Positions 1,895 to 17,950 of a stretch of DNA of 35,847 nt are shown piece after piece. The first letter of the stretch is position 1, and the number at the start of each line of letters is the position of its first letter. Both the position numbers and the translations under genes were made by a program. This stretch comes from an uncultured Methylococcaceae bacterium. Its GTDB lineage: Bacteria > Pseudomonadota > Gammaproteobacteria > Methylococcales > Methylomonadaceae. The stretch spans positions 1-35,847 of the forward strand of contig CAIVQX010000140.1 in the NCBI GenBank assembly GCA_903908165.1, read 5' to 3'. A model generated the notes under the pieces. That model had not been told where the DNA came from. It saw only the letters and a program-made list of their open reading frames with translations, and searched no databases.

Positions 1895-2155
1895 ATGACA
1901 TCCATTCGATCACCTCAACAACTAGGCAATGCACTGCGTTTCGCTCGCAAGAAACTCGGGCTGACACAGCCTCAGTTGGCGCTGGCGGCAGGGGTTGGTG
2001 TGCGCTTCATTGTCGACCTTGAAGCAGGCAAGCCCACCTTGCGATTGGAAAACGTGCTGCGGGTCATTGATGCCCTGGGGGGGGAGGTCCAGTTGAGTGG
2101 ATTGCCATCTGTTGTTGTCGACGATCGACGTGAGGGTAGCGACCATGGCGCATGA
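1895..2155 (+). CDS. hipB: HipB-type antitoxin, XRE-family repressor
   Basis: An 86-residue helix-turn-helix protein of the XRE/Cro family. The DNA-binding fold spans about residues 8-65, with the recognition region around RKKLGLTQPQLALAAGVG. It is short and ends soon after the domain, like HipB antitoxins. It overlaps hipA by 11 bp, which suggests translational coupling. In known hipBA modules the HipB dimer binds palindromic operators and HipA, neutralising the kinase and repressing the operon; the two palindromes just upstream fit this. The gene is visibly GC-richer than its neighbours and uses more G/C-ending codons, a sign of transfer. Confidence 0.85.
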   Translation: MTSIRSPQQLGNALRFARKKLGLTQPQLALAAGVGVRFIVDLEAGKPTLRLENVLRVIDALGGEVQLSGLPSVVVDDRREGSDHGA

Positions 2156-3443
2156 GCTAGAAGTCTGGCTTTTCGCCGATCGTGTCGGCACTCTGGCGCT
2201 GGTTGATGGCCGACTGAGTTTTTGCTATGCGTCGGGCTGGCTGGCGCAATCAGACGCCGTTGCCTTGTCCGTCTCGCTGCCTCTGCAAGCGGAGCCGTTC
2301 GACGATCGTAAAACGCGACCTTTCTTTGCTGGTCTGCTGCCTGAAGGGCAGATGCGCCGCCTGATTGCGCAGCAGTTCCAAGTTTCTGGCCAAAACGACT
2401 TTGCCCTGCTGGACCACATCGGCGGCGAATGCGCCGGGGCCGTCACGTTCCTTGAGCCAGGGCAAGCTTTGCCTGTGCCAACCCGCAACGATGGTGTTCA
2501 ATGGCTGAGCGACGACGAAGTCGTTGCCATCTTGGATGAATTGCCGCGTCGACCTATGCTGGCAGGCAAAGACGGCTTGCGGCTTTCCTTGGCTGGAGCT
2601 CAGGACAAACTGCCGGTGGTATTCGATGGCGCTCGCATTGGGCTGCCCCTCAATGGCACGCCCAGCTCACACATCTTGAAACCCGCCATTCGCGCTGTTG
2701 AAGACAGTGTGATCAACGAGGGATTCTGCATGGCACTGGCTGAGGCAATGCAGCTCAAGCCCGCAAAATCAAAAGTTCACCAGGTACTGGATCGATCGTT
2801 TCTGCTGGTTGAGCGCTACGACCGACTACTGATCGATGCCCAGGGGCTCCGGCAACGGCTGCATCAAGAGGACTTCTGCCAGGCACTGGGCGTGGTGCCA
2901 GAAACGAAATACCAGAATGAAGGTGGTCCGGATCTGGCCCAGTGCTTCAATCTGGCACGCAGTGCGGCACGCCCCAGTGCACCGCAGGTTCTGCGACTGC
3001 TCGACTACGTGATCTTCAATGCGTTAATCGGCAATCATGATGCGCATGCCAAGAATTTCTCTCTGCTGTACTCAGGCAAGCACCCCGTTCTGGCACCGTT
3101 TTACGACACGCTCTCGACAGCGGTGTATCCAACACTGACACCGAAGATGGCAATGAAAATCGGCAGCAAGTACAAGTTCAGCGAAGTTCAGGCACGGCAC
3201 TGGGAGCAGTTTGCAGAAGGCGTTGGTCTCACCAAGGCGCAAGCCAAACGGCGCATTCTGGAATTGGCAAAGTTACTGCCAGCCACGGCGCGCAAGCTCC
3301 AGTCTGACTCCGGACACAGTTTTGCTGGCAATGCCTTGGTTGAGCAAATCAATACCTTGATTGAACAACGCTGCGCCCTGACGATTCAGAGGCTCACCGA
3401 CCCTGCCGCCGAAAACGACGTACCCGTCGAACCCTCTATTTGA
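2145..3443 (+). CDS. hipA: HipA-type Ser/Thr kinase toxin
   Basis: A 432-residue HipA kinase. The ATG at 2145 is chosen over the upstream in-frame ATG at 2097 because it gives the family N-terminus (MAHELEVWLFADRVG) and has GAGGG before it. The N-terminal couple_hipA domain covers about residues 1-105 and the kinase core follows. Motifs comparable to E. coli HipA are visible: LSLAGAQDK with the phosphorylatable serine near 148, SHILK with the ATP lysine near 179, GNHDAHAKN with the catalytic aspartate near 299, and FYDTLS with the metal-binding aspartate near 321. No key residue is missing, so the toxin should be active. In E. coli, HipA phosphorylates glutamyl-tRNA synthetase; other HipA types hit other synthetases, so the target here is unknown. 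GC-rich like hipB. Confidence 0.92.
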   Translation: MAHELEVWLFADRVGTLALVDGRLSFCYASGWLAQSDAVALSVSLPLQAEPFDDRKTRPFFAGLLPEGQMRRLIAQQFQVSGQNDFALLDHIGGECAGAVTFLEPGQALPVPTRNDGVQWLSDDEVVAILDELPRRPMLAGKDGLRLSLAGAQDKLPVVFDGARIGLPLNGTPSSHILKPAIRAVEDSVINEGFCMALAEAMQLKPAKSKVHQVLDRSFLLVERYDRLLIDAQGLRQRLHQEDFCQALGVVPETKYQNEGGPDLAQCFNLARSAARPSAPQVLRLLDYVIFNALIGNHDAHAKNFSLLYSGKHPVLAPFYDTLSTAVYPTLTPKMAMKIGSKYKFSEVQARHWEQFAEGVGLTKAQAKRRILELAKLLPATARKLQSDSGHSFAGNALVEQINTLIEQRCALTIQRLTDPAAENDVPVEPSI

Positions 3444-16854: not shown

Positions 16855-16886
16855 ACGACCTCCTAGAAAATAACTTTAAGTTAATT

Positions 16887-16913
16887 CTAGCACTCTATAA
16901 GAAAGAGTGCTAA
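16887..16913 (-). promoter_or_regulatory. CIRCE-like HrcA operator before rpoH
   Basis: On the minus strand TTAGCACTC, nine bases, then GAGTGCTAG. The established CIRCE consensus is TTAGCACTC-N9-GAGTGCTAA, so 17 of 18 arm bases match and the spacer is exactly nine. It lies 33-59 bases before the rpoH start. No T run follows on the minus strand, which argues against an ftsX terminator. By analogy, the repressor HrcA would bind here; hrcA itself is not in the window. Confidence 0.82.
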
Positions 16914-16924
16914 TAATTTTTAAG
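16896..16924 (-). promoter_or_regulatory. Candidate rpoH promoter overlapping CIRCE
   Basis: On the minus strand CTTAAA and CTTATA are separated by 17 bp; the -10 box falls exactly in the nine-base CIRCE spacer. The match is only fair, but the position is what repression by occlusion would need. Confidence 0.35.
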
Positions 16925-16933
16925 GCTATTTCA

Positions 16934-17950
16934 CTAAGGCCTTGTGTTTTGAAGCTGACAAATAAGTACCACCCAAGAGCCCAACACACCCAAAAATGAG
17001 GTAAGACTTATCATTGCCAATGTTTCAGAAAAACTTAAAAACATTAAATGAAAACCTCCCCCATAAAGCTCCGAGAGAACTTCAACTGACTGCCTTAAAA
17101 TTAACATCAAGATAGTAACGATAAACCAAGCAGACATTCCTGAAAGAAAGCCAATCCAAAAACCAGTGTACAAAAATGGCCTATATATGAAAGAATTTGT
17201 AGCGCCCACCAATTTGGCGATAACTACTTCCTCACGTCGAGCATGCAATTCTAGTCGAACGGTATTACCAATAATAAACAACACAGCAGCTGCTAAAAGC
17301 ATATTAACCAAACTGGTAAAAAGACGCACTAAAGAGACAATAGATTGGAGTCGCTCAACCCACTGCGTATCCATCTGAGCAAAATCAACCTCAGGATACT
17401 GCTGAAAACTTTTAAATAGGCTACTTAATGTCTCTTTATCATCCAATGTGTTTTTTGCTAAAACCTCTATTACAATCGGTAAAGGATTTTCCTCTAATCT
17501 CTCAATTACAGCACCAAAGCCGCTGTAACTTTTAAAATCTGCTAATGCCTGCTCTCTGGTTATTAATTTAACCTCCTTTACATTAATATTGTCCCTCACA
17601 TTATTAGCTAATTTATTAGCGTGCATATCAGAGACATCATCCCTCAGAAATAGAGAAATTTGATTACTCGTTTCAAAATTACCGGTTAATTGCTGAAGAT
17701 TATTTACTAAAATATAAAATCCGCTGGCTAGTGAAATAGCAATTGCCAATACTGCTATTGTCATAATCGACGTAAAAGGTGAAGCAACCAATCGACCAAG
17801 ACTAGAAAACAAGGCATGTGCATGAACATCTCTATGAGCATTTATTTTATCTCGTAAACCACCCCCAGCAGATTTAGTTTGCCTTATTTCCTGCCTAACT
17901 TGCTTAACAGGTGGATCTTTTATGATACGATTTTTATATTCACGCTTCAT
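16934..17950 (-). CDS. ftsX: FtsX, cell-division ABC transporter membrane subunit
   Basis: 338 residues with one membrane segment near 60-82, a large periplasmic loop to about 210, then three more membrane segments, the usual FtsX topology. LHARREEVVIAKLVGAT before the third segment is the conserved cytoplasmic coupling region. FtsEX recruits and activates periplasmic amidases at the division site, in E. coli through EnvC. It starts three bases after the ftsE stop. The long basic N-terminal tail (KREYKNRIIKD) is normal for gammaproteobacterial FtsX. Confidence 0.95.
   Translation of the reverse strand: MKREYKNRIIKDPPVKQVRQEIRQTKSAGGGLRDKINAHRDVHAHALFSSLGRLVASPFTSIMTIAVLAIAISLASGFYILVNNLQQLTGNFETSNQISLFLRDDVSDMHANKLANNVRDNINVKEVKLITREQALADFKSYSGFGAVIERLEENPLPIVIEVLAKNTLDDKETLSSLFKSFQQYPEVDFAQMDTQWVERLQSIVSLVRLFTSLVNMLLAAAVLFIIGNTVRLELHARREEVVIAKLVGATNSFIYRPFLYTGFWIGFLSGMSAWFIVTILMLILRQSVEVLSELYGGGFHLMFLSFSETLAMISLTSFLGVLGSWVVLICQLQNTRP

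Follow-up and report, generated by a model that had tools for sequence, protein, structure and literature searches.

The window analysed here is the whole 35,847-nucleotide stretch of DNA from an uncultured Methylococcaceae bacterium. On its minus strand lies rpoH, whose product scored 389.8 bits against the RpoH equivalog model TIGR02392 (cut-off 323.1). A CIRCE element, the operator of the repressor HrcA, falls in the gap between rpoH and ftsX, both of which are read from the minus strand (Table 1). Read along that strand from 16913 to 16887, the element is TTAGCACTC TTTCTTATA GAGTGCTAG, with arms identical at 17 of 18 bases to the CIRCE inverted repeat TTAGCACTC-N9-GAGTGCTAA. It was the sole match at ≤3 mismatches in the whole window (one mismatch), while shuffled versions of the window held a mean of 0.03 such matches, with one found in 3 of 100 shuffles. 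The end of ftsX is 20 nt from the element and the rpoH ATG is 32 bases from it (16855-16886), a position within the promoter or leader region of this heat-shock gene. An ORF search of the window returned no plus-strand ORF of at least 100 aa starting near the element, and rpoH is therefore the gene that it can serve. A preliminary description of this DNA had placed a CIRCE-like site with 17 of 18 matching bases before rpoH, and the site is indeed there as the only one of its kind in the window; its extent, first given as 16887-16924, is corrected to a 27-base site that stops at 16913, and its distance from rpoH, first given as 33 bases, is one base shorter.

Table 1 Coordinates of the features discussed in the text, numbered from the first letter of the window.
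Feature	Position	Strand	Basis or remark
HipA-like protein	2097..3443	plus	HipA N-terminal domain (TIGR03071)
rpoH, heat-shock sigma factor sigma-32, 285 aa	15997..16854	minus	TIGR02392
Shine-Dalgarno AGGAGG of rpoH	16859..16864	minus	by eye
Predicted transcription start, approximate	16877	minus	placed from promoter position; ~7 nt after -10, leader ~23 nt
Predicted extended -10, TGC-TAGAAT, overlapping CIRCE right arm	16884..16892	minus	family conservation outside arm
CIRCE (HrcA operator), TTAGCACTC-N9-GAGTGCTAG	16887..16913	minus	9-9-9 inverted repeat, CIRCE pattern match
Predicted sigma-70 -35 hexamer TTAGCA, within CIRCE left arm	16908..16913	minus	prediction; 18-nt spacing
AAAATTA, A/T-rich, directly upstream of CIRCE, putatively UP-element-like	16914..16920	minus	each base 81-91% in family
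ftsX, next gene upstream of rpoH	16934..17950	minus	same strand as rpoH
Haem A synthase-like and FtsY-like frame, 648 aa	18617..20563	minus	PF02628; PF02881 + PF00448

Two further genes of the window deserve mention. In the 648-aa frame, residues 42-289 resemble haem A synthase (PF02628) and residues 361-645 an SRP receptor of the FtsY type (PF02881 and PF00448). This CtaA-FtsY fusion is conserved and adjoins ftsE-ftsX-rpoH; near-full-length matches were found in 30 of 35 genomes of the genus, of which two carry a single TAA in frame, and the other five genomes gave partial matches. On the plus strand, the HipA-like protein is possibly a toxin-antitoxin kinase.

The closest named RpoH records all belong to the Methylococcales, led by an uncultured Methylococcaceae bin (94%) and followed by a Crenothrix polyspora bin and a Methylococcales bin (both 89%) and Methylobacter psychrophilus (86%); by this kinship, the host is therefore probably an aerobic methanotroph. 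A search of the genome for hrcA and for further CIRCE sites, as suggested in the preliminary description, recovered both, so that the refuting condition named there, a genome lacking hrcA, does not apply. The assembly (2.78 Mb, 210 contigs) contains one hrcA (PF01628, 206.9 bits; TIGR00331, 312.5 bits with a cut-off of 197.2) and three CIRCE sites at ≤3 mismatches, each with only zero or one; a reversed-pattern control gave one match at ≤3 mismatches. Besides the site at rpoH, one precedes groES-groEL and one precedes hrcA, which is followed by grpE and dnaK.

Within the genus, CIRCE stands before rpoH at all 30 loci fetched (from 35 genomes), with 0-2 mismatches. Across the order, it was present at ≤3 mismatches in 116 of 117 rpoH loci, a set made up of 77 loci taken regardless of hrcA and 40 picked as hrcA-positive, with 20 hrcA-negative loci kept apart. 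The sole exception is an hrcA-positive locus (L118, genome G200) with no site in the ~250 upstream bases examined; at another hrcA-positive locus (L120), CIRCE lies 123 nt upstream of rpoH. Among 80 named Methylococcales records, which overlap the 117-locus set and in many cases are the same genomes, 79 carry CIRCE at ≤2 mismatches and one at 3; cultured relatives with the site include Methylobacter tundripaludum SV96 (L309) and M. psychrophilus (L292). The arms are nearly invariant and the spacer is free: 75 distinct spacers occur in 85 distinct family contexts, and the mean pairwise identity in the family is 0.95 for the arms, 0.38 for the spacer and 0.42 for the 30 bases upstream. Such a pairing of identical arms with a free spacer is the behaviour expected of a protein-binding palindrome.

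Genomes without detected hrcA offer a comparison within the order, in which 218 of 251 genomes gave an hrcA match. The genus g22, of the same family (f1) as the window, was sampled with 12 genomes (G175, G177, G180, G193, G203, G214, G221, G223, G227, G239, G242 and G249), none of which is among the hrcA matches listed; nine are recorded as misses, and for three the absence is deduced from their not being among the matches listed. CIRCE was found at none of 11 g22 rpoH loci (best 6-9 mismatches) and nowhere at ≤2 mismatches in any of the 12 genomes; heat-shock control should differ in this genus. Three further hrcA-negative genomes (G054, G103 and G205) had no CIRCE at ≤2 mismatches. At the other nine hrcA-negative order loci the site persists, in eight at ≤2 mismatches and in G205 at 3, so that 9 of the 20 hrcA-negative loci have a site at ≤3 mismatches. 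Six of these nine are at 2-3 mismatches, compared with two of 40 hrcA-positive comparison loci with at least 2 (L118 and L134). Five of the hrcA-negative genomes with a site at rpoH (G150, G154, G166, G216 and G237) have also kept the CIRCE on the groES side, and hrcA may therefore be missing only from these drafts rather than lost.

The association was also examined in a class-wide sample of 187 genomes (completeness ≥95%; for most families one or two genomes). Gammaproteobacteria in the GTDB sense include the betaproteobacteria. A match to rpoH at E 1e-50 or better was found in 179 genomes and was lacking in 8; the upstream stretches of 148 genomes among the matches listed were used, including the window's own genome and G037, and CIRCE was called at ≤3 of 18 mismatches within ~420 bases of rpoH. 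The counts leave aside the second copy of rpoH in each of G404, G288 and G333, and the hrcA-negative group includes some genomes assigned to it by absence among the matches listed. CIRCE preceded rpoH in 109 of 114 hrcA-positive genomes, leaving five exceptions, and in 5 of 34 hrcA-negative genomes (Fisher p 1.2e-20, phylogeny ignored). Restricting the sample to the first genome per family gave 81 of 85 and 4 of 18 (Fisher p 1.1e-10, phylogeny ignored). The reversed pattern at ≤3 mismatches was found in none of 146 class stretches, and the rpoH sites of G000 and G037 have one mismatch each. These comparisons point to a strong tendency, with exceptions, for CIRCE to be retained at orthologous rpoH genes and to be missing from genomes without hrcA. 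In one genome, G317, the examined rpoH upstream stretch has no CIRCE, and a GAACTT-CIRCE composite (one mismatch) lies away from its rpoH match (G317:C8:47854-47898), possibly at a second rpoH or as the result of a rearrangement.

The bases around the element reveal how it is placed relative to a promoter. Immediately after the right arm, the bases A-A-T are conserved at 87, 98 and 99% in the family and at 72, 76 and 93% in the CIRCE-aligned class contexts, and together with the right arm they spell TGC-TAAAAT or TGC-TAGAAT. Among the 85 distinct family contexts, the resulting -10 hexamer differs from TATAAT at one position in 72, two in 12 and three in one, and the TG of the extended -10 is present in all 85. 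The -35 hexamer, taken as the better of two placements, has two mismatches to TTGACA in 74 contexts, one in 10 and three in one, although the CIRCE arm largely dictates this match. Because the -35 and the first half of the -10 are CIRCE bases, their conservation alone is no proof of a promoter; since the first three -10 bases and the TG also belong to CIRCE, the evidence for a promoter lies in the last three bases of the -10. Twenty other CIRCE sites of the order served as controls: groESL and hrcA sites and one at neither hrcA nor a recognised groES (L377), with the two from the window's genome included. Only two of the 20 (L375 and L381) have N-A-T after the right arm, and the placement of operator relative to promoter there is therefore different from that at rpoH. 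The rpoH operator thus appears to be superimposed on the promoter core, where bound HrcA would be predicted to exclude RNA polymerase.

The preliminary description had looked for the -10 box in the CIRCE spacer. Inspection by eye does show a TATAGA there (four of six bases shared with TATAAT), but the lack of conservation among spacers and the better hexamer given by the conserved A-A-T led us to reject the spacer box; the -10 is probably TAGAAT overlapping the right arm. By eye, four hrcA CIRCE sites (L003, L370, L374 and L383) share an upstream stretch A-A/C-C-T-G-N-T-A-T/C-T-T-T, perhaps containing a -10 (TATTTT) ahead of the operator, unlike the arrangement at rpoH.

HrcA very probably represses rpoH in this bacterium. 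An HrcA operator acting on rpoH had been proposed in the preliminary description, and the conservation in the order, the absence in g22 and the class-wide association with hrcA, all of them sequence comparisons, support it. We consider it highly likely that the element is a working HrcA operator that doubles as the core of rpoH's main promoter, one of the sigma-70 type, with HrcA predicted to repress rpoH within a feed-forward loop. From work in Bacillus subtilis, the activity of HrcA is known to depend on GroEL. At normal temperature, free GroEL would keep HrcA active and HrcA would occupy CIRCE, covering the -35 that lies within the left arm as well as the -10 that overlaps the right arm, so that RNA polymerase would be excluded and RpoH kept low. 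Unfolded protein would occupy GroEL and leave HrcA inactive, releasing rpoH, groESL and hrcA-grpE-dnaK together, after which the released RpoH would raise its own targets and amplify the response. HrcA would in this way act on the chaperones both directly and via RpoH, forming a feed-forward loop that new GroEL would close. The sequences themselves show the operator, hrcA, the CIRCE sites at groESL and hrcA-grpE-dnaK, the conservation, the lack of the site in g22 and its overlap with a conserved core that resembles a promoter; we infer the binding of HrcA, the occlusion, the release on heating and the targets of RpoH. The link between two heat-shock systems foreseen in the preliminary description is retained, while its plain series wiring is not: groESL and hrcA-grpE-dnaK carry CIRCE as well, and a feed-forward loop therefore fits better.

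It is highly improbable that the palindrome is a matter of chance or a relic to which HrcA does not bind. The window site does have one mismatch, and some genomes without detected hrcA still carry the site, yet only 0.03 matches per window are expected at ≤3 mismatches, conserved arms with a free spacer recur in 116 of 117 order loci, and the site is absent from the hrcA-less genus g22. HrcA could instead serve as a roadblock or leader element, if the rpoH promoter lay further upstream, in or before ftsX, and CIRCE fell in the transcribed leader, possibly acting in the mRNA. Such a layout has a parallel in the same genome, where the groESL CIRCE sits directly downstream of a promoter-like TTGACA-N16-TATCAT (by eye); moreover, the ftsY part, ftsE, ftsX and rpoH all lie on one strand, and the sigma-E promoter of E. 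coli rpoH is further from the start codon (98 nt). We nevertheless regard it as unlikely, given that the A-A-T completing an extended -10 is highly conserved at family rpoH and rarely matched at the other CIRCE sites, and that so few bases separate ftsX from CIRCE.

Control by HrcA might also be real and yet minor, setting only the basal level, with the heat induction of RpoH achieved mainly through translation (an mRNA thermosensor) and protein stability. In favour of this reading, induction of RpoH in E. coli is mainly post-transcriptional. An HrcA/CIRCE regulon is lacking in E. coli according to the text of PMC545781 on Geobacter sulfurreducens. When the rpoH leader was folded together with the early coding region at 25 of the 30 genus loci, in itself a weak test, the median gave no hint of a strong thermosensor of the E. 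coli kind, the z for excess stability being -0.43 (single values -2.56 to 1.06) compared with -1.77 for E. coli. Opening of the start site from 30 to 42 °C, an equally weak test, went from 0.42 to 0.45 as the genus median and from 0.32 to 0.42 in E. coli. A minor role for HrcA is possible, though less likely than not, and repression through the promoter core remains the preferred reading.

In many relatives, the boxes of a putative second promoter are interleaved with CIRCE. The class logo and the sigma-E counts were based on 118 stretches, 88 of which had a site and enough flank, with 28 further class loci left out. Across the 88 contexts, the bases at -16 to -10 before CIRCE tend to GGAACTT and the start of the spacer tends to T-N-A; together these read as a sigma-E promoter, GGAACTT-N16-TCTNA, with the left arm of CIRCE contributing its final two bases to the -10. 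The GGAACTT box at ≤1 mismatch and offsets -17 to -15 was found in 49 of the 88 contexts, compared with 0.4% in shuffles, at a nearly fixed distance (-16 in 38, -17 in 10 and -15 in one). The spacer T and A were both at their sigma-E places in 41 of 88. At the same tolerance, GGAACTT occurred in 16 of 85 contexts of family f1 and in 10 of 30 of family f4; L182, L185, L217 and L245 are examples of class loci with the boxes and CIRCE interleaved. A combined sigma-E/CIRCE pattern (≤3 mismatches) returned 76 rows in 72 of the 187 genomes. Of the 70 rows for which an rpoH position was available, 66 were at rpoH, representing 65 distinct places (one was read on both strands), and 4 were elsewhere; 6 more were unplaceable.

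The sigma-E boxes also occur without the operator. Among 28 genomes of the class that lack both hrcA and CIRCE, four keep the sigma-E promoter exactly (none of 100 shuffles was as good) and four more have it with one mismatch, a quality reached by 1-5 of 100 shuffles; in two of these last four, both from one family, the left half of CIRCE is still visible. At the window's own rpoH, a sigma-E promoter was considered and rejected: the -35 box that many relatives have is missing, the bases at -16 to -10 before CIRCE being ATAGCCT, and most contexts of its family are likewise without the box. We lean towards the view that the ancestral gammaproteobacterial rpoH promoter was a compact integrator, comprising a sigma-E promoter with its -10 formed by the end of the left arm and the start of the spacer, CIRCE itself, and a sigma-70 extended -10 on the right arm, in which HrcA would have gated both envelope-stress and housekeeping transcription. 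E. coli would then represent the remnant left after the loss of hrcA, and the window bacterium the opposite loss, with CIRCE kept and the sigma-E boxes gone. With sigma-E, HrcA and sigma-70 elements within ~45 bp, this would, if true, be an unusually compact meeting point of envelope and cytoplasmic stress.

Accounts of the bacterial heat-shock response treat sigma-32 systems, as in E. coli, and HrcA/CIRCE systems as alternatives. Most of the related hrcA-positive genomes examined share the arrangement described here, and two systems usually described as separate thus look wired together. Permina & Gelfand 2003 may already include some CIRCE sites before rpoH. The repressor and operator are those of the familiar HrcA/CIRCE control of groESL and hrcA-grpE-dnaK, both sites of which are present in the window's genome, and the groESL and hrcA sites differ from the rpoH site in seldom having the N-A-T extension. 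The one precedent met in the literature searched is the delta-proteobacterium Geobacter sulfurreducens, for which Table 8 of PMC545781 (2004) gives a predicted candidate CIRCE, TTAGCACTC-N9-GAGTGCTAA, at -51 of rpoH. As in the window's genome, the same operator precedes rpoH, and CIRCE is also reported before groESL and hrcA-grpE-dnaK-dnaJ (PMC545781). No other rpoH site is listed in that table, and the passages on it in PMC545781 describe no promoter overlap, link to hrcA loss or sigma-E part. Agrobacterium tumefaciens, like the host, has RpoH and HrcA in one proteobacterium; their roles there are "differential and independent" by the title of the study, whereas the present site predicts control of rpoH by HrcA. 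Among the matches listed in a literature search, titles and abstract openings mentioned no other HrcA control of rpoH in Gammaproteobacteria and no sigma-E/CIRCE composite. The element at rpoH is a known one; its location there is conserved and has been little described, and parts of its distribution may have been predicted before.

The nearest counterpart on the sigma-E side is E. coli, whose rpoH has the sigma-E promoter TGAACTT-N16-TCTGA, called P3, and the same boxes and spacing surround CIRCE in many members of the class. CIRCE is missing from the rpoH upstream region of E. coli K-12, where the best match has 8 mismatches, whereas the window's genome has CIRCE and no sigma-E -35 box. The lack of an HrcA/CIRCE regulon in E. 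coli K-12 is also stated in the G. sulfurreducens text of PMC545781. If HrcA commonly acts on the rpoH promoter in hrcA-positive Gammaproteobacteria, it would be a top repressor that is missing from the E. coli model, and the reliance of E. coli on translational control of rpoH may, if this is true, follow from the loss of HrcA.
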